A program made the position numbers and the translations under genes. The notes beneath the pieces are model-generated. The model ran no database searches. It saw only the letters and a list, made by a program, of their open reading frames with translations, and was not told where the DNA came from. Shown here piece after piece: positions 1 to 9,800 of a DNA stretch of 10,887 bases; the stretch's first letter is position 1, and the number at the start of each line of letters is the position of its first letter. The DNA comes from an uncultured Bacilli bacterium (GTDB lineage Bacteria; Bacillota_I; Bacilli_A; RF39; UBA660): contig CANQER010000028.1 in assembly GCA_947595415.1 (NCBI GenBank), positions 1 through 10,887 of the forward strand, in the 5' to 3' direction.

Positions 1-771
1 ACAGTATCATATACAGATGATTTACCAAAAAAGATAATAGTAAAACCAAATGTATATTCATGGAGAACTCAAAAAATAAATACATTTTTCCAAGCATTAT
101 ATAATTTTAATAGAGGATTAGATAGTCATATGATGAAAAATACAGAATGGGGAGCAGTGGCTTATTTATCTCATTCAAAATATGGAAAATATGGAAATAT
201 TAATTATACTACAGATTCAGAAAAAGAAGTATATATAAATAATTGTAGTAATTATGTAACAGGAATAGCAGGAGATAGTGCATCAGCTTCATATTCATCA
301 ACTACATGTACAGAAAATACATATAATACAAAACAAGGTCAAAAAGCAAGCACAACTGGTAATATAACAGGAGTCTATGATATGTCAGGTGGAGCATACG
401 AATATGTGGCAGGATATAGAAAAGGTTTAGATAGTACAAGATTAACTAATGGTGGATTCGACAGTGATCCAATAAAACAATATACAGAGTTAACAAAATA
501 TTTTGATGTTTATGAAGATACGAATAGTTTATCAAGTGACTATAGTACAAGAATATTAGGGGATGCCACAGGAGAGATGGGGCCACTTAATAGTAGTGGA
601 CGTAGTAGTTGGTATGACGATAGCGCTATCTTCGTCAACTCTAGTAACCCATGGTTCCAGCGTGGTGGTTACTATAATAACGTTAATAATGCTGGAGTGT
701 TTAGCTTCAGCACCAACAGTGGTTATTTCAACATCAACAACTCCACTCGCCTTGTATTATCTCCTAAATAA
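1..771 (+). CDS. Surface protein, C-terminal part, with FGE-sulfatase/C-type-lectin-like domain (5' end outside the window)
   Basis: The frame is open from base 1 and ends at TAA 769-771, so this is the C-terminal 256 residues of a longer protein. From about window-residue 47 it carries landmarks of a formylglycine-generating-enzyme/C-type-lectin-like fold: NTEWGAVAYLSHSKYG, then TGNITGVYDMSGGAYEYVAG, LGDATGEM, and a C-terminus of the form NPWFxRGG, AGVFSF, RLVLSP. From memory, domains of this pattern recur at the ends of exported proteins, often with pilin-like N-termini, in uncultured gut Bacilli. The fold is also used by variable proteins of diversity-generating retroelements for ligand display. 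No enzyme activity is implied. The last roughly 50 codons differ sharply in codon use (separate entry). An internal ATG at 130 is not the real start, because the conserved domain begins upstream of it. A terminator follows at 843-877. The domain call rests on motif recognition; the N-terminal domains and the anchor cannot be seen. Confidence 0.75.
   Translation, partial: TVSYTDDLPKKIIVKPNVYSWRTQKINTFFQALYNFNRGLDSHMMKNTEWGAVAYLSHSKYGKYGNINYTTDSEKEVYINNCSNYVTGIAGDSASASYSSTTCTENTYNTKQGQKASTTGNITGVYDMSGGAYEYVAGYRKGLDSTRLTNGGFDSDPIKQYTELTKYFDVYEDTNSLSSDYSTRILGDATGEMGPLNSSGRSSWYDDSAIFVNSSNPWFQRGGYYNNVNNAGVFSFSTNSGYFNINNSTRLVLSPK
610..762 (+). other. Candidate DGR variable region (C-ending codon block)
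   Basis: By hand count, 22 of the 56 codons from 601 to 768 end in C, against 8 of 200 in the preceding 600 bases. Asparagine is AAC in 7 of 10 cases here and AAT in all 16 cases upstream. The C-ending codons (AAC, GAC, AGC, ATC, GTC, TAC, TTC, ACC, TCC) can all be reached from AAC by changing only the adenines, which is the known signature of adenine-specific mutagenic retrohoming. They cluster where C-type-lectin DGR proteins vary, around NPWFxRGG and AGVFxF and before RLVL. Boundaries are approximate. No template repeat or reverse transcriptase is visible in the window, so a paralogue with atypical codon use is the main alternative. Confidence 0.5.
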
Positions 772-842
772 AAACCATTTATAACCTATCTTTGATTTAA
801 AAAGTAATTAACTAGATTAGTTCTAACACCTTAATTAAACAT

Positions 843-2564: not shown

Positions 2565-2586
2565 GAAAATCTAAACTTCTTAAATG

Positions 2587-2595
2587 TGGTATAAT
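2587..2595 (+). promoter_or_regulatory. Possible extended -10 element before the recombinase gene
   Basis: TGGTATAAT at 2587-2595 matches an extended -10 hexamer perfectly, but no good -35 is visible 16-18 bases upstream. A start site about seven bases downstream would fall near 2602, on the ribosome binding site, giving a leader of only about nine bases. That makes it a weak promoter candidate. Read-through from the upstream gene is the alternative. Confidence 0.35.
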
Positions 2596-2601
2596 AATAG
2601 T

Positions 2602-2607
2602 GGTGAT
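2602..2607 (+). promoter_or_regulatory. Ribosome binding site that fixes the recombinase start at 2611
   Basis: GGTGAT matches the anti-Shine-Dalgarno extension (AGGAGGTGAT) and sits three bases before ATG 2611. The in-frame ATG at 2584 has no such site and would place the ribosome binding site inside the coding sequence. Confidence 0.75.
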
Positions 2608-2610
2608 AAT

Positions 2611-3474
2611 ATGGATTATGTAAAAAAATATGAAGATTATCTAACATATGAAAAAAATTATTCTAAAAATACAGTAATTAGTTATTTAGATGACTTAAAA
2701 GTATTTGAAACATATTTAAAAGGTAAAAATATATCGTTTTTAAATTGTGATTTTGAAACTATTTATGATTATATGAATTATTTGAGTAAACTAAAATATT
2801 CTAATAAATCAATATCAAGAAATATAAGTTGTCTTAGAAGTTTTTATAAGTATTTAACTAAAGAAGGATATATTAAAGAAAATCCTATGTTATTAGTATC
2901 TAATCCTAAGGTTGAAAAAAAACTACCAAAATACTTAAATGTTATTGAAATAGAAGATATACTTGATAGTATTGATCAAAATACCAAATTAGGTCTTCGT
3001 GATAAATTAATAGTTGAACTTTTGTATTCAACTGGAATAAGAGTTAGTGAGTTAGTTAATATAAAAGTAAATGATATTAATTTAAGTGAAAAAAAAATAA
3101 TCATTAAAGGTAAGGGTAATAAAGAAAGAGTAGTTTTATTTGGTAGTAATTGTTATAACTTATTAAATTCTTATTTAAAGGATCACAATCATGAATATTT
3201 AATATTAAACAGTAGAGATAATAAAATTACAGATAGAGGAATTAGGGTTATAATTGATAAAATAATAGCTAATAGTTCTGTAAAGTTAAAAATAAGTCCT
3301 CATGTTTTAAGACATACTTTCGCAACTCATATGTTAAATGAAGGGGCTGATTTAATAACAGTAAAAGATTTACTTGGTCATGAGAGTTTAGCTACTACTC
3401 AGATTTATACTCATGTTTCAAATGAAAGACTTAGAAATGTGTATTTAAAATGTCATCCAAGAAGTCGAAAATAG
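2611..3474 (+). CDS. Xer-type site-specific tyrosine recombinase (XerC/XerD family)
   Basis: This 287-residue protein has the normal Xer length. Residues 1 to about 90 form the SAM-like core-binding domain (YLTYEKNYSKNTVISYLDDL). From about 105 the catalytic domain shows the full active site: R144 in TGIRVSEL, K168 in KGKGNKERVV, H231 and R234 in HVLRHTFATHML, H257 in LLGHESLATTQ, and nucleophile Y266 in IYTHVS. Xer proteins resolve chromosome dimers at dif during division by forming a transient phosphotyrosyl link to DNA. XerC cannot be told from XerD by eye, and I see no dif site in the window. ATG 2611 is preferred over the in-frame ATG at 2584. The gene lies 46 bases after the SpoIID-type gene on the same strand. 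Single-copy housekeeping function is more likely than a phage integrase, because there are no phage or excisionase genes nearby. Confidence 0.92.
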   Translation: MDYVKKYEDYLTYEKNYSKNTVISYLDDLKVFETYLKGKNISFLNCDFETIYDYMNYLSKLKYSNKSISRNISCLRSFYKYLTKEGYIKENPMLLVSNPKVEKKLPKYLNVIEIEDILDSIDQNTKLGLRDKLIVELLYSTGIRVSELVNIKVNDINLSEKKIIIKGKGNKERVVLFGSNCYNLLNSYLKDHNHEYLILNSRDNKITDRGIRVIIDKIIANSSVKLKISPHVLRHTFATHMLNEGADLITVKDLLGHESLATTQIYTHVSNERLRNVYLKCHPRSRK

Positions 3475-3506
3475 TTGTCAAAAATTGTCAAGAAATATGG
3501 GAAATA

Positions 3507-3535
3507 TTGATATAAAAACAAGGTTTTGATATAAT
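3507..3535 (+). promoter_or_regulatory. SigA-type promoter of ppdK operon
   Basis: TTGATA at 3507-3512 and TATAAT at 3530-3535 are separated by exactly 17 bases, and TGA before the -10 gives an extended -10. Transcription should start near 3542, just before the AGGAGG ribosome binding site at 3546-3551, so the leader is about 15 bases and has no room for a riboswitch. Confidence 0.8.
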
Positions 3536-3557
3536 TTATATAGTTAGGAGGATATAA

Positions 3558-6182
3558 ATGAAATACGTTTATAGTTTTAATGAAGGTAATAAAGATATGA
3601 GAGAATTACTTGGGGGTAAGGGAGCTAATTTAGCTGAAATGATGAATATTGGTCTTCCTGTACCAGATGGTTTTACTATTACAACAGAAGCTTGTAATAA
3701 GTATTATGAAAATAATAAAGTAATAAGTGATGAAATAATAAAAGAGATTTTCGATAATATTTCTAGTTTGGAAAATAGAACTGGGAAAAAAATGGGAAAT
3801 AAGGAAAATCCTTTATTGGTATCTGTTAGAAGTGGTTCTAGAGCTAGTATGCCTGGAATGATGGATACCATTTTAAACTTAGGTTTAAACGATGAAATAG
3901 CTGCATCTTTAGAAAGTAGTAATAAAAGATTTGTCTATGATTCATATAGAAGACTTATTCAAATGTTTGCTGATGTAGTTAAAGGGTATCCAAAATCAAA
4001 ATTCGAACGTTTATTAGATGAATATAAAAATAACAAAAATGTTAAATATGATACTGAACTTGATAGTGAAGATATGTATAATATCACAATGGAGTTTAAA
4101 AAAATCTATAAAGATTTAGCTGGTAGTGATTTTCCTCAAGATCCAAAAGAACAACTTTTAGAAGCTGTTATGGCTGTTTTTAGGTCTTGGATGAATGAAA
4201 GAGCTATAGTTTATAGAAGAATGAATAATATTCCAACTTCATGGGGAACAGCTGTTAATGTTCAAGAAATGGTTTATGGTAATATGGGTGATACTTCTTT
4301 AACAGGAGTTGCTTTTACACGTAATCCTGCTACAGGGGAAAATAAACTTTATGGGGAATATTTAATCAATGCTCAAGGAGAAGATGTAGTAGCAGGTATT
4401 AGAACTCCACAATCTATTGATACATTAGAAACTTTGATGCCAGATATTTATAATGAATTTAAAGATATTGCTAAGAAATTAGAAAATCATTATTTAGATA
4501 TGCAAGATATGGAATTTACTGTTGAAAATGGGAAATTGTATATGCTTCAAACTAGAAATGGTAAAAGAACTGCTAAAGCAGCTATTAAAATTGCTGTTAG
4601 TCTAGTAAATGAAGGCTTGATAAGTAAAGAAGATGCAATATTAAAAGTTGAATCTAATCAATTAGATCAATTATTACATCCTAGTTTTGATAATGACGAT
4701 TTAAAAAATCATAAACTTATTACAACAGGACTAGCTGCTTCACCTGGTGCAGCAACAGGAAAGATATATTTTAATGCTGAAGATGTGTTTAATGCTAAAC
4801 AAAATGGTGGAAAATGTTTACTTGTAAGACTTGAAACATCTCCTGAAGATATTGAAGGAATGAATAATTCTGTAGGTATTTTAACTGTAAGAGGAGGAAT
4901 GACTTCTCATGCAGCTGTTGTAGCTAGAGGAATGGGAAAATGTTGTGTAAGTGGTTGTGGTGATTTAGTTATTGATGAAGTAAATAAAACGATTACTACT
5001 AAAGATAATGTAGTTTATCACGAAGGAGATTATTTATCAATTGATGGATCTACTGGTAATGTTTATGAAGGGAAAGTAAAAACAACTGATCAAATTATTA
5101 GTGGTGATTTTGAACTATTTATGAGTTGGGCAGATAGCTTTAGAAGATTAAAAGTAAGAGCTAATGCTGATAATCCTAAAGATGCTTTAACTGCTTATAA
5201 TTTTAAAGCTGAAGGTATTGGTTTATGTAGAACAGAGCATATGTTTTTTGAAGAAAGTCGTATTTTTGCAGTAAGACAGATGATTGTATCTGAGACTTTA
5301 GAACAAAGAAAGGAAGCTTTAAATAAAATTTTACCAATGCAACAAAAGGATTTTGAGGATTTGTTTAGAACTATGAAAGGTCTTCCTGTAACTATTCGTT
5401 ATCTAGATCCACCACTACATGAATTTTTACCTCATACAGATGAAGAAATTAAACCTTTAGCTGATAGTTTAAATATGAGTTTTGCTAGTTTAAAAGAACG
5501 TATTGAGTCTTTAAAAGAGTTTAATCCAATGATGGGTCATCGTGGTTGTAGACTTGCTATTACCTATCCTGAAATTGCTGTTATGCAAACTAAAGCTATA
5601 TTTAATGCAGCGATAAACGTTTATAAAGAAGGGTTAAAAGTTGAACCTGAAATTATGATACCTCTAGTAGGTGATGTTAATGAACTTAAGTATTTACGAA
5701 AGATAATTACTGACGAAGCTTCTTTAATATTTAAAGAAAATAATATAAATATACCTTATAAAATAGGAACTATGATTGAAATACCAAGAGCTTGTTTAGT
5801 AGCTGATGAAATAGCTCAAGAAGCAGAATTCTTTAGTTTTGGAACTAATGATTTAACTCAACTAGGTTATGGTTTTTCTAGAGATGATGCTTCTAAATTC
5901 TTAAACGATTATTATAAAAAAGGTATTTTTGAACAAGATCCTTTTAATCGATTAGATCAAAAAGGTATTGGTAAGTTAGTTTCTATCGCAGCTAGTAAAG
6001 GTAGAGAAGTAAGAAAAGATATTAAACTTGGTATATGTGGTGAACATGGAGGGGAAGAATCTAGTATCGAATTCTGTCATAATATTGGACTTGACTATGT
6101 ATCTTGTTCACCATATCGTATTCCAATTGCGCGTCTTGCTGCAGCAAAAGCTGCTATACGTGAAAAAAATAACATTAAATAG
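3558..6182 (+). CDS. ppdK: Pyruvate, phosphate dikinase
   Basis: PPDK interconverts ATP, phosphate and pyruvate with AMP, PPi and PEP. In fermentative bacteria it often runs toward pyruvate and ATP in glycolysis. The 874 residues match the usual bacterial length. The N-terminal ATP-grasp region (1 to about 340) opens with GGKGANLAEM and has the conserved loop RSGSRASMPGMMDT at 91-104. The swivelling phosphohistidine domain (about 385-510) contains GGMTSHAAVVARGMG, with the phosphorylated histidine at 451. The C-terminal PEP/pyruvate barrel includes IGLCRTEHMFF, MGHRGCRL, FFSFGTNDLTQL and ICGEHGG, whose C827 is the expected proton-transfer cysteine. All key residues are present. AGGAGG lies six bases before the ATG. 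It is the first gene of a likely four-gene operon, and the bile salt hydrolase gene starts 18 bases after its stop. No PPDK regulatory kinase/phosphorylase gene is adjacent. Confidence 0.97.
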   Translation: MKYVYSFNEGNKDMRELLGGKGANLAEMMNIGLPVPDGFTITTEACNKYYENNKVISDEIIKEIFDNISSLENRTGKKMGNKENPLLVSVRSGSRASMPGMMDTILNLGLNDEIAASLESSNKRFVYDSYRRLIQMFADVVKGYPKSKFERLLDEYKNNKNVKYDTELDSEDMYNITMEFKKIYKDLAGSDFPQDPKEQLLEAVMAVFRSWMNERAIVYRRMNNIPTSWGTAVNVQEMVYGNMGDTSLTGVAFTRNPATGENKLYGEYLINAQGEDVVAGIRTPQSIDTLETLMPDIYNEFKDIAKKLENHYLDMQDMEFTVENGKLYMLQTRNGKRTAKAAIKIAVSLVNEGLISKEDAILKVESNQLDQLLHPSFDNDDLKNHKLITTGLAASPGAATGKIYFNAEDVFNAKQNGGKCLLVRLETSPEDIEGMNNSVGILTVRGGMTSHAAVVARGMGKCCVSGCGDLVIDEVNKTITTKDNVVYHEGDYLSIDGSTGNVYEGKVKTTDQIISGDFELFMSWADSFRRLKVRANADNPKDALTAYNFKAEGIGLCRTEHMFFEESRIFAVRQMIVSETLEQRKEALNKILPMQQKDFEDLFRTMKGLPVTIRYLDPPLHEFLPHTDEEIKPLADSLNMSFASLKERIESLKEFNPMMGHRGCRLAITYPEIAVMQTKAIFNAAINVYKEGLKVEPEIMIPLVGDVNELKYLRKIITDEASLIFKENNINIPYKIGTMIEIPRACLVADEIAQEAEFFSFGTNDLTQLGYGFSRDDASKFLNDYYKKGIFEQDPFNRLDQKGIGKLVSIAASKGREVRKDIKLGICGEHGGEESSIEFCHNIGLDYVSCSPYRIPIARLAAAKAAIREKNNIK

Positions 6183-6200
6183 TATAAGGAAGGTAATATT

Positions 6201-7175
6201 ATGTGTACTGCAATAACTTATAATACAAAAGATCATTATTTTGGAAGAAATTTAGATTTAGAATACTCATATAAAGAAACTGTTACGATAACTCCTAGAA
6301 ATTATCATTTTAAGTTTAGAAAAGTAAATGATATTAATAAACATTATGCAATTATTGGTATGGCATATGTAGAAGATAATTATCCTCTTTATTACGATGC
6401 GATTAATGAAAAAGGTTTAGGTATGGCAGGGTTAAATTTCCCTAGTAATGCAGATTACAAAAATGAGTTAAGTGATAAAGATAATATTGCTCCTTTTGAA
6501 TTTATTCCTTGGGTTTTATCACAATGTAGTAATATTTTAGAAGTTAAAGACTTATTAAGTAGAATAAATTTAGTTAATTTGAATTTTAGTGATAAATTAC
6601 CAGTTTCACCCTTACATTGGATAATTGCTGATAAAAATGAAGCTATCACAATTGAATGTGTAAAAGATGGTTTAAAAATATATGATAATAAAGTAGGTGT
6701 TTTAACAAATAATCCAACCTTTGATATTCATATGTTTAATTTAAATAACTACATGAGTTTATCAATAGAACAACCAAACAATAATTTTTCTAAAAAATTG
6801 GATCTTCAAACTTATAGTAGAGGTATGGGAGCGTTAGGGTTACCTGGAGATTTATCATCTGCTTCAAGATTTGTGAAAGCAACATTTACCAAAATGAATT
6901 CTTTGTCAGGTAATTCTGAATCTGAAAGTATTAGTCAATTTTTTCATATTTTAGGTTCAGTTGATCAACAAAGAGGTTGTGTTCATATGGGTGATGATAA
7001 GTATGAAATAACTATTTATGGTTCTTGTTGTAATATGGATAAAGGAATATATTATTATAAAACTTACGAAAATAGTCAAATTACAGGTGTTAATATGTAT
7101 AATGAAGATCTTGATAGTAGTAATTTAATAAGTTACGATTTGATTAAGGGTCAACAAATACTAATGCAAAACTAA
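6201..7175 (+). CDS. bsh: Bile salt hydrolase (choloylglycine hydrolase, Ntn family)
   Basis: This enzyme cleaves the amide bond of glycine- or taurine-conjugated bile salts and acts in the cytoplasm; there is no signal peptide. Its 324 residues fit the family. The protein begins MCTAITY, so after loss of Met1 the nucleophile is Cys2. FGRNLDLEYSY supplies R16 and D19, GMAGLNFP supplies N79, VLTNNPTFD supplies N171, and LSSASRFVKATF supplies R223; together these are the known catalytic and oxyanion set of bile salt hydrolases. The later stretch with YSRGMGALGLPGD, SQFFHILGSV and YGSCCNMDKGIYYY closely resembles true bile salt hydrolases. Penicillin V acylase is the nearest alternative and less likely. 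AAGGAAGG at 6186-6193 is the ribosome binding site. The 18-base gap after ppdK, with no terminator, implies co-transcription. The gene argues for life in an animal intestine. Confidence 0.93.
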   Translation: MCTAITYNTKDHYFGRNLDLEYSYKETVTITPRNYHFKFRKVNDINKHYAIIGMAYVEDNYPLYYDAINEKGLGMAGLNFPSNADYKNELSDKDNIAPFEFIPWVLSQCSNILEVKDLLSRINLVNLNFSDKLPVSPLHWIIADKNEAITIECVKDGLKIYDNKVGVLTNNPTFDIHMFNLNNYMSLSIEQPNNNFSKKLDLQTYSRGMGALGLPGDLSSASRFVKATFTKMNSLSGNSESESISQFFHILGSVDQQRGCVHMGDDKYEITIYGSCCNMDKGIYYYKTYENSQITGVNMYNEDLDSSNLISYDLIKGQQILMQN

Positions 7176-8388: not shown

Positions 8389-8454
8389 ACCAACGAGAGG
8401 TTTGCTCTAATATGGCATAAATGCAGATTTTGTCAAAAAAAAGTTAATTTATGC
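8389..8454 (+). other. Structured leader or possible small RNA between the two promoters
   Basis: Beginning at the predicted P1 start, a small hairpin can form: CCA 8390-8392 with TGG 8413-8415 outside AGAG 8396-8399 and CTCT 8405-8408. A second inverted repeat pairs 8415-8422 with 8447-8454 (GCATAAAT/ATTTATGC), enclosing an A-rich loop. No known riboswitch core or terminator is recognised. Function is unknown, and the structure may be chance in AT-rich DNA. Confidence 0.3.
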
Positions 8455-8483
8455 TTGACAATTTAAAGTTGATGTGCTATCAT
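8455..8483 (+). promoter_or_regulatory. SigA-type promoter P2 of the 8511 surface-protein gene
   Basis: A perfect TTGACA at 8455-8460 is 17 bases from TATCAT at 8478-8483, with TGC before it as an extended -10. Transcription should start near 8490, about 20 bases before the ATG and just ahead of the ribosome binding site at 8497-8507. Together with P1 this makes a tandem promoter, suggesting high expression. Confidence 0.8.
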
Positions 8484-8496
8484 ACTAGGCATATTG

Positions 8497-8507
8497 AAGG
8501 GGGAGAG
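8497..8507 (+). promoter_or_regulatory. Strong ribosome binding site that fixes the start at 8511
   Basis: AAGGGGGAGAG lies just before ATG 8511. An in-frame upstream ATG at 8451 overlaps the -35 of P2, lies before the predicted P2 start, and would add 20 hydrophilic residues before the membrane segment, so it is rejected. Confidence 0.8.
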
Positions 8508-8510
8508 ATT

Positions 8511-9800
8511 ATGTATAGTGAGAGAAAAGATACTTTTTCAATTAAAGATATCGTCTTACAAGTATTATTCATTATCTTATTCGTATTTATTTTAATTTGG
8601 TTATTCCCAATGAAGGGAGACTTAAAACAAGCTGTTAAAGAAATTAAAGGAGCTGTTGCTGGTATTTCAGTTGATAGTGGTAACAATAGTGCTTTAACTG
8701 CTCAAATATTTGGTGATAATATCACTAAAATGAAAGAAGCTGCTAAAAGTTATTATACTGATGAACGTTTACCTAAATCTGTAGGTAGTAAGGTTTCAAT
8801 GACTTTAGGTGACATGATGGATAAACATTTATTGGTTAAATTAGTAGATGGAAACAATGGTTCATGTGATCTTGAAGAATCATATGTTGAAGTTACTAAA
8901 TTAGACAAAGAATACCAAATGAAAGTTAATTTATCATGTACTGATGCATCTGACTATATAATTGAACATATGGGATGTTATACATATTGTCAAACTGCAA
9001 TTTGTGAAGCTAAAAAAGCTACAGGTACAGGTTATACTTATGTAAAATCAGGAAGTGCTACACCAGCTTCAAGTAAACCATCTACAAGTAAATCTACTAC
9101 TGCTAAGAAGGTTCCAGCTATTAACTTTGTTCAAAAATCAAATGTAAGTTCTGGAGCTAATACTGGTAAAAATACTGGTGGATCTTCTGGAAACAACAGT
9201 AATAACAACATGGGTAGTGGAAATACAAATAGTAGTGGTAATAATCAAGGTGGTATTGTTATAGGTGGAGGTACTGTAGATAACTCTAATAGTAACAACA
9301 CTACAAATAGTAACAATGTAACTAATAATTATTATTCAAATACGACTAAATGGGTAAATAAAGAAACAGAATGGATTACTTTATATTCAGTACCTTGGGT
9401 TAGAACAACTTCTAGTACACATTCATTCCAAGCTACTTTAAATATTCCATCTGAACTTAAAAATAAAGATGATATTAGAAATGTTGAATTATCAGAAGTG
9501 CAATATGTTGCACCAATGACTTCACAAAGTCAATTAAATACAACTATTAATAACCATACTGTTTGGTATGATTATGCAGGAAGTTCTTATGACTATCCAT
9601 ATAGTCAATGGAAAAGTATATATTTAGCTAAAAATGTTAAGGCTACACCAAGAATTTCTGGTAACAGAGTTATTGGATTCAGTTTAACATTCACAAGCAA
9701 TTCATCATCACAAGCTTATGTAGTTGGTGGAGCTAAGACAATGATAGCTGGTTTCCAATACAGAGTTAAATGGTCTTATCAAAAAGAAGTTCAAGCTTAA
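8511..9800 (+). CDS. Membrane-anchored surface protein with Asn/Ser/Gly-rich linker, function unknown
   Basis: This 429-residue protein is not recognised as a named family. Residues 14-32 form one hydrophobic membrane segment after a short charged N-terminus, so the rest should lie outside the cell. Residues about 35-170 form a compact region (SYYTDERLPKSVGSKVSMTL) with five cysteines at 119, 143, 156, 160 and 165, which could form disulfides. Regions of this style occur in exported pilin-like proteins of uncultured gut Bacilli, recalled from memory. Residues 172-280 are a low-complexity linker rich in Asn, Ser, Gly and Thr. Residues 281-429 look like a beta-rich domain with many Trp and Tyr, possibly a ligand- or wall-binding module. 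There is no LPXTG sorting motif. Tandem promoters and a strong terminator mark it as a one-gene, probably highly expressed unit. Confidence 0.85.
   Translation: MYSERKDTFSIKDIVLQVLFIILFVFILIWLFPMKGDLKQAVKEIKGAVAGISVDSGNNSALTAQIFGDNITKMKEAAKSYYTDERLPKSVGSKVSMTLGDMMDKHLLVKLVDGNNGSCDLEESYVEVTKLDKEYQMKVNLSCTDASDYIIEHMGCYTYCQTAICEAKKATGTGYTYVKSGSATPASSKPSTSKSTTAKKVPAINFVQKSNVSSGANTGKNTGGSSGNNSNNNMGSGNTNSSGNNQGGIVIGGGTVDNSNSNNTTNSNNVTNNYYSNTTKWVNKETEWITLYSVPWVRTTSSTHSFQATLNIPSELKNKDDIRNVELSEVQYVAPMTSQSQLNTTINNHTVWYDYAGSSYDYPYSQWKSIYLAKNVKATPRISGNRVIGFSLTFTSNSSSQAYVVGGAKTMIAGFQYRVKWSYQKEVQA
9165..9345 (+). repeat. Low-complexity Asn/Ser/Gly coding tract
   Basis: Within the surface-protein gene this stretch is dominated by AAC/AAT, AGT/TCT and GGT/GGA codons, giving runs such as GNNSNNNMGSGNTNSSG. 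It encodes a flexible linker and is a likely site of length variation between strains. No exact tandem unit is obvious. Confidence 0.65.

Follow-up and report, generated by a model that had tools for sequence, protein, structure and literature searches.

A probably retired diversity-generating retroelement variable region at the tip of a C-type-lectin-like protein gene in an uncultured Bacilli bacterium

Results

A target-like gene at the edge of a contig

We analysed a stretch of 10,887 nucleotides (hereafter the window; G000:C28:1-10887) from the assembly of an uncultured Bacilli bacterium (G000; 935,318 bases, or 0.94 Mb, in 119 contigs; completeness 68.4%). The window opens on the 3' part of a gene for an FGE-sulfatase/C-type-lectin-like protein, whose 5' part is missing since the reading frame is already open at the contig start, and the C-terminal end of the encoded protein coincides with a segment that very probably was a variable region (VR) of a diversity-generating retroelement (DGR), homologous to the template repeats (TRs) of related bacteria (Table 1). 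The second gene downstream of the target encodes a tyrosine recombinase, and further on lie a choloylglycine hydrolase family gene and an Asn/Ser-rich linker protein.

Table 1. Coordinates of the features discussed (positions in the window unless a locus is named)
Feature	Location	Strand	Basis or remark
Target gene, 3' part (FGE-sulfatase / C-type-lectin-like protein)	1..771	+	Open from base 1 to stop 769-771
Probable former DGR variable region, homologous to relatives' TRs	613..768	+	Read against TRs of L073 etc.; A-type codons at ~622-740
45-codon core for statistics	625..759	+	Changes relative to leave-one-out estimate: 13/44 at A-type columns, 16/91 at the others
3' end; homing-initiation stretch in relatives, which we take to be IMH-like	742..768	+	Drifted in window copy
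Post-stop stretch without hairpin	772..816	+	Downstream sequences of counted copies compared
Tyrosine recombinase, phage-integrase family	2584-3474		3.5e-45; possibly housekeeping XerC/D
Choloylglycine hydrolase family (bile salt/penicillin acylase type)	6201-7175		CBAH 9e-111
Asn/Ser-rich linker protein	8451-9800		No Pfam match
MutS-domain-I-like small protein	L023 5624-5881		MutS_I match 1.2e-8

The window protein scores 16.1 bits against the Pfam FGE-sulfatase profile, under the cut-off of 23.3, and the profile is matched at E<=0.01 by 35 of the 60 aligned family members. A profile search of solved structures gave only PDB 5vf4, which was not significant (E=0.053).

Towards its 3' end the gene changes its codon use. 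C-ending codons rise from 8/200 in bases 1-600 to 22/56 in bases 601-768 (Fisher p=1.1e-10), and Asn codons go from 16 AAT/0 AAC to 3 AAT/7 AAC (Fisher p=1.8e-4); all four counts had been given by an earlier reading of the sequence alone (the sequence-only reading) and were reproduced exactly. The best 56-codon stretch in the eight other window CDS tested holds at most 10 C-ending codons, vs. 22 at the target end. At third positions, C/(C+T) is 20/38 (53%) in the window VR vs. 9/53 (17%) in the upstream part of the same gene, and 0.42 vs. 0.12 when pooled over the family in this genome; the upstream third positions are C-poor and resemble those of other window genes (C/(C+T) 0.12). We also considered mere Asn-rich linker usage as the source of the shift, and rejected it on the codon counts across the window CDS. 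The earlier reading had described the C-ending codons as all AAC or adenine-replaced AAC, which is too narrow, as four TTC, one TCC and one CGC are also present, and in the aligned core these lie mostly at conserved non-A positions of the template. It had also drawn the VR from 601 to 771; the VR nature of the segment stands, and by alignment reading the homology to TRs begins at ~613 (our codon-by-codon comparison with the TR of G160, a relative from another genus, runs from 625 on). In a gene this AT-rich, C-ending codons may serve as a simple clock for the last rewriting of a VR.

A family of paralogous gene ends in the same genome

A DNA search of the window's genome with bases 540-771 returned 36 matches, 22 of them at E<=2e-11 (window included). 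Among the contigs fetched we counted 28 family ORF ends, including the window and one contig-edge fragment (29 entries less one unrelated 20-codon ORF), and beyond these there are a partial fragment on C41 and a copy on C2. A prepilin-type N-terminus is present in seven of the eight copies with an uncut start, the seven spanning 503-733 codons, and Pfam N_methyl scored above its cut-off in 5/5 prepilin-type paralogues checked. The genome also has three PF00437 (T2SSE-type ATPase) matches above cut-off, which lend weak support to a pilus since the family is above cut-off in 13/14 well-known control genomes. Judging from the prepilin anchor and the fold family, the target protein probably sits on a pilus or the cell surface, where it would act as a binding module.

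Among the matches listed for the window-protein and C1-paralogue queries, none was a near-identical protein from another source. The best-scoring match to the window protein was 56% identical (a search confined to proteins 0.55-1.75 times its 256 aa, so that full-length copies were excluded); with the full-length C1 paralogue, 8000 candidates were scored, and among the 120 listed the outside matches were 36-52% identical, the four best matches being without an outside source. The relatives that bear names are 'Bacilli bacterium' MAGs.

A hairpin follows the stop codon in 4/28 counted copies (L025, L034 and L039, and L035 with an altered loop), and one half of it is present in L131, where a contig begins; downstream of the window copy's stop we found none (Table 1). 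The hairpin is a weak criterion of a live target, and its absence alone was rejected as proof of death, because near-pristine VRs of G160 (see below) show no obvious hairpin either. Among the 36 DNA matches to the window VR and the 11 to the C79 hairpin copy in this 68%-complete assembly, we recognised no TR of the genome's own; the strong own-genome matches inspected from both queries are gene ends.

A broken DGR cassette on another contig

Contig C61 of the same genome (locus L023) carries, all on one strand, genes for a MutS-domain-I-like protein, an Avd and a reverse transcriptase (RT), the only RT locus that we found in the assembly. The Avd matches bAvd at 1e-20 (74.7 bits, cut-off 40) and scores 78.1 bits against NCBIfam NF033474, just below the curated cut-off of 80. 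DGR-type RTs are marked by the motifs GxxxSQ plus YxDD, and the C61 RT pieces contain GIPIGNFTSQ and YMDD. Compared with the intact RT of the related locus L073, the C61 RT is split into four consecutive pieces whose frames are shifted, the two long ones 61% and 66% identical to it; against the L073 proteins the MutS-like gene is split over two frames and the Avd lies in one. The matched RT region was in one frame in 10/10 other cassettes given the same test (in G160 the match ends at query residue 320). Among 120 listed RT proteins, the 12 best matches to the C61 pieces are 60-74% identical.

Two of the RT breaks adjoin A-runs, and the breaks are known from one assembly only; they could be sequencing or assembly errors, though a generally error-ridden contig is unlikely since the other long genes of C61 are open. 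The contig ends ~197 bases upstream of the aligned start of the MutS-like gene (5872), and in relatives the TR ends ~205 (L073), 323 (L083) and 234 (L078) bases upstream of that gene; C61 terminates about where relatives carry the TR. The sequence-only reading had named the absence of both RT and TR from the genome as what would count against it; in this 68%-complete assembly an RT is present in broken form, and a TR was not found.

Template and variable regions in relatives

Avd relatives (E<=1e-3) occur in 32 of the 193 genomes of the same family, G000 included, some of them weak, and 14 named loci were located in GTDB contigs. Seven loci have a neighbouring VR gene that belongs to this protein family (L074 excluded as a second copy of L073), and 92/96 of their TR/VR mismatches fall at TR adenines. 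Eleven further loci yielded six TR/VR pairs, two of them partial, with 80/81 mismatches at A; a pair was absent at three (L217, L222 and L086), and at the other two (L076 and L221) arrays stand in its place. In the seven cassettes for which TR, MutS-like gene and Avd were all placed (L073, L075, L078, L083, L218, L219 and L220), the MutS-like gene is the middle one of the three; it was undetected in the cassettes of G160 and G004.

The arrays at L076 (JAAWDB010000110.1; 225-604 and ~2860-5026) and L221 (G164:C58) consist of tandem VR-like units that adjoin the RT. The units start near GTTTGTC, end AGTTTTCG, mostly lie 164-316 bases apart and hold ORFs of just 35-94 aa. We counted 10 unit ends in L076 and three in L221, and a CTATG...CATAG-type stem-loop follows the unit end in 8/9 L076 units folded; a regular expression for such units found one unit per matching locus in other relatives' loci. 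These units resemble VR target sites without a gene, or else silent donor cassettes, next to the MutS-like, Avd and RT genes. With a viral link in mind, one pattern scan of viral contigs gave 40 scattered single matches.

In G160 (92% complete) the TR on C49 matches 28 other places, representing 28 distinct VR sequences. Fourteen of these have at most 5/98 non-A changes and 17-22/37 A changes, and the other 14 have 6-37 non-A changes; summed over the 14 fresh VRs, 270/518 A positions vs. 30/1372 non-A positions are changed. In 26/28 VRs a G stands near the 3' end where the TR has A, so this end of the VR apparently escapes template copying. Upstream sequence was usable for 12 of the fresh copies; among them, differences per codon at third positions are 0.079 in the VR vs. 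0.233 upstream, and those at first and second positions are ~1.8 and 2.6 times higher. Third-base memory stands at 0.93 in the VR and 0.35 upstream. Third positions so alike, together with so high a third-base memory, show rewriting in trans, here of many paralogues by one template. An in-frame stop interrupts the Avd gene of G160, so that this system too may recently have ceased to work. G160 also has a second RT (L203, G160:C16:12500-20500, at 5551-6974) with GNMVSQ and YMDD and a small protein just upstream, in an arrangement unlike a DGR cassette, and an FGE-type gene lies 2.4 kb away.

Trans rewriting of many targets is not uniform across the clade. The TR of G021 matches 16 VRs, only two of which have at most five non-A changes, and the TRs of G106 and G157 match few VRs. 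In 6/20 genomes examined, FGE-family members are present with no RT hit; G080, G023, G044, G116, G131 and G029 have 13-16 FGE-family matches each and no PF00078 hit. Since FGE members are plentiful in genomes without an RT hit, family size alone is no evidence of a live DGR. Eight tips read in G080 (13 loci fetched) vary in C content from 4/31 to 21/32, and these FGE-rich genomes without an RT hit are possibly further orphaned repertoires.

Age and drift of the variable regions in the window's genome

Eighteen copies in the window's genome are gap-free over the 45-codon core, the other ten having been omitted for indels, divergence or truncation. Column entropy among the 18 is 1.39 at columns where the G160 TR has adenine vs. 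0.81 elsewhere (p<=5e-5, permutation within codon position), a test independent of these copies because the template comes from another genus. When each copy was compared with a leave-one-out estimate of the template (columns being assigned to the A-type partly by their variability), the window copy had the lowest number of A-type changes of the 18 (Table 1), the other 17 having 15-33 of 44-46. The sequence-only reading had called the window copy close to the template, which holds for its A-type columns; it fails at the others, where changes at 16 of 91 mark the copy as old and not freshly copied. Measured against this estimate, all 18 copies, hairpin ones included, carry 12-40 non-A changes, those of the hairpin copies perhaps overcounted because the estimate has itself drifted.

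The VRs differ widely in the C share of their C/T-ending codons: the three gap-free hairpin copies lie at 0.62-0.69, the window VR at 0.53 and the oldest VR at 0.03. For the fourth hairpin copy (C65) the share is 15/34, and for the G160 TR 23/37. The gap-free hairpin copies (C79, C11 and C80) differ from one another at just 7-10 of 45 third positions. Across the set in the window's genome we found no homogenisation (third-position divergence 0.451 in the VR vs. 0.343 upstream), and third-base memory is no higher in the VR (r 0.29, range 0.20-0.38) than upstream (0.27, 0.13-0.40), so that the comparison does not demonstrate past trans rewriting in this genome. Taken as a group, however, the three gap-free hairpin copies are less diverged in the VR than upstream (0.193 vs. 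0.287), so some of the copies may have undergone rewriting at a later time.

Discussion

The proposal of a present or former DGR variable region at the end of the target gene is supported by the cassette in the same genome, the 28 paralogous ends and the TR/VR pairs of relatives, and our results support descent from a DGR VR that is not demonstrably live. We consider it highly likely that bases 613-768 are the retired VR of a DGR. A cassette in this lineage would once have acted in trans on many prepilin-anchored proteins, rewriting their tips. Its RT and MutS-like gene would later have decayed and homing would have ceased, leaving the tips frozen and drifting towards codons as AT-rich as those of the genome at large, with the window tip among the better preserved. 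A decayed multi-target DGR that left frozen tips behind is the simplest account of the data.

We weighed this account against three others. The gene could have been duplicated from an ancestral DGR target, keeping a C-rich tip that was never itself rewritten, a rather unlikely history but one that fits the third-base memory of the VRs in this genome, which equals that upstream, and the greater third-position divergence in the VR than in the upstream part; it accords poorly with upstream sequences at a C/(C+T) of 0.12 from which many VRs stand far apart, as fits rewriting after the genes split, and with the trans rewriting of many paralogues that is plain in G160. It is quite improbable, in our judgement, that the VR is still live, with the RT breaks being assembly errors, or a second, intact RT and the TR lying in the third of the genome that the assembly lacks. 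Every gap-free copy has 12-40 non-A changes, compared with 0-5 from the real TR in 14/28 G160 VRs, the set as a whole lacks homogenisation, and a single RT locus was found; in addition, the C65 hairpin copy has a C content of only 15/34 and the window copy has no hairpin (a weak criterion, as noted). What a live VR does have on its side is an assembly 68.4% complete in 119 contigs, a C61 end at about the place of the relatives' TR, ~197 bases upstream of the MutS-like gene, and hairpin copies C79, C11 and C80 that retain template-like C content (0.62-0.69) with few third-position differences.

That no DGR was ever involved, the family being just a set of paralogues, hypervariable or under positive selection, whose codon use is unusual, deserves almost no credence. 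Asn-rich stretches elsewhere do use some AAC (13/39 Asn codons in the linker gene at 8511), yet the cassette in G000, the (nearly) adenine-only TR/VR pairs in relatives and the variation at template-adenine columns already refute such an explanation.

Returning to the retired VR as our preferred reading, we tentatively extend it, with somewhat less than even confidence, to the clade: its DGR may be a genome-wide repertoire engine in which one template acting in trans keeps rewriting 14 to 28 dispersed surface-gene tips (prepilin-anchored in the window's lineage), single copies can leave homing as frozen binders, and whole repertoires outlive the machine. The arrays of gene-less VR-like units at L076 and L221 raise the possibility of an additional stage in which VRs act as donors or an archive. 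One template whose dispersed targets include 14 that are near-pristine and number up to 28 that can be recognised, beside a lineage with a decayed machine, would offer a natural series, from live or recently live through partly retired to dead, along which the fate of hypermutated proteins could be traced.

The Mtd DGR of Bordetella phage BPP-1 shares with this system the mutagenesis of TR adenines, an Avd and a C-terminal CLec target, and differs in being phage-borne with a single target; Treponema denticola, whose DGR is compared below, belongs to another phylum. Among the literature matches listed, DGRs in RF39, Mollicutes or Tenericutes did not appear except in one review that mentions each term once, and for VR cassette arrays beside a DGR the DGR term occurred in one broad review only.

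Several VRs per element are reported for 271 of 948 DGRs in the MetaCSST survey, which also ascribes to some templates a dozen VR copies, or even hundreds; the many-VR example described there departs from the usual pattern, having non-A changes and 21 VRs merged within one ORF (PMC6642488). The same survey mentions putative pilin structures among DUF1566-type DGR-linked targets, and we therefore do not claim prepilin-type targets as such to be new (PMC6642488). Cyanobacterial remote variable proteins are described, in the sections cited, as CLec paralogues dispersed by duplication, one of which has remnant TR-VR homology with the RT not nearby and so resembles the G000 copies; the 121 DGR-diversified genes over 21 genomes differ in that most are predicted to be cytosolic and signalling-linked (PMC7517822). 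As excerpted, the report on Thiohalocapsa PB-PSB1 gives 15 target genes with 21 VRs, some diversified in trans, and is alike in its many targets per genome; it differs in having nine DGR loci, not one template, and targets tied to conflict systems, not prepilin-type surface proteins (PMC10907252).

The TvpA-type DGR of T. denticola has one RT, one TR and up to seven scattered FGE-sulfatase-type targets, and isolates without RT and TR retain leftover VRs, the very state that we propose for G000; its DGR includes an HRDC protein, and no prepilin anchor is seen in the part of the report cited (PMC4891356). Its isolates carry 2-7 targets each, compared with the 28 copies counted in G000 and the 28 VR places in G160, and, within the cited parts of these reports, it is in target number that the system described here is larger than its precedents.
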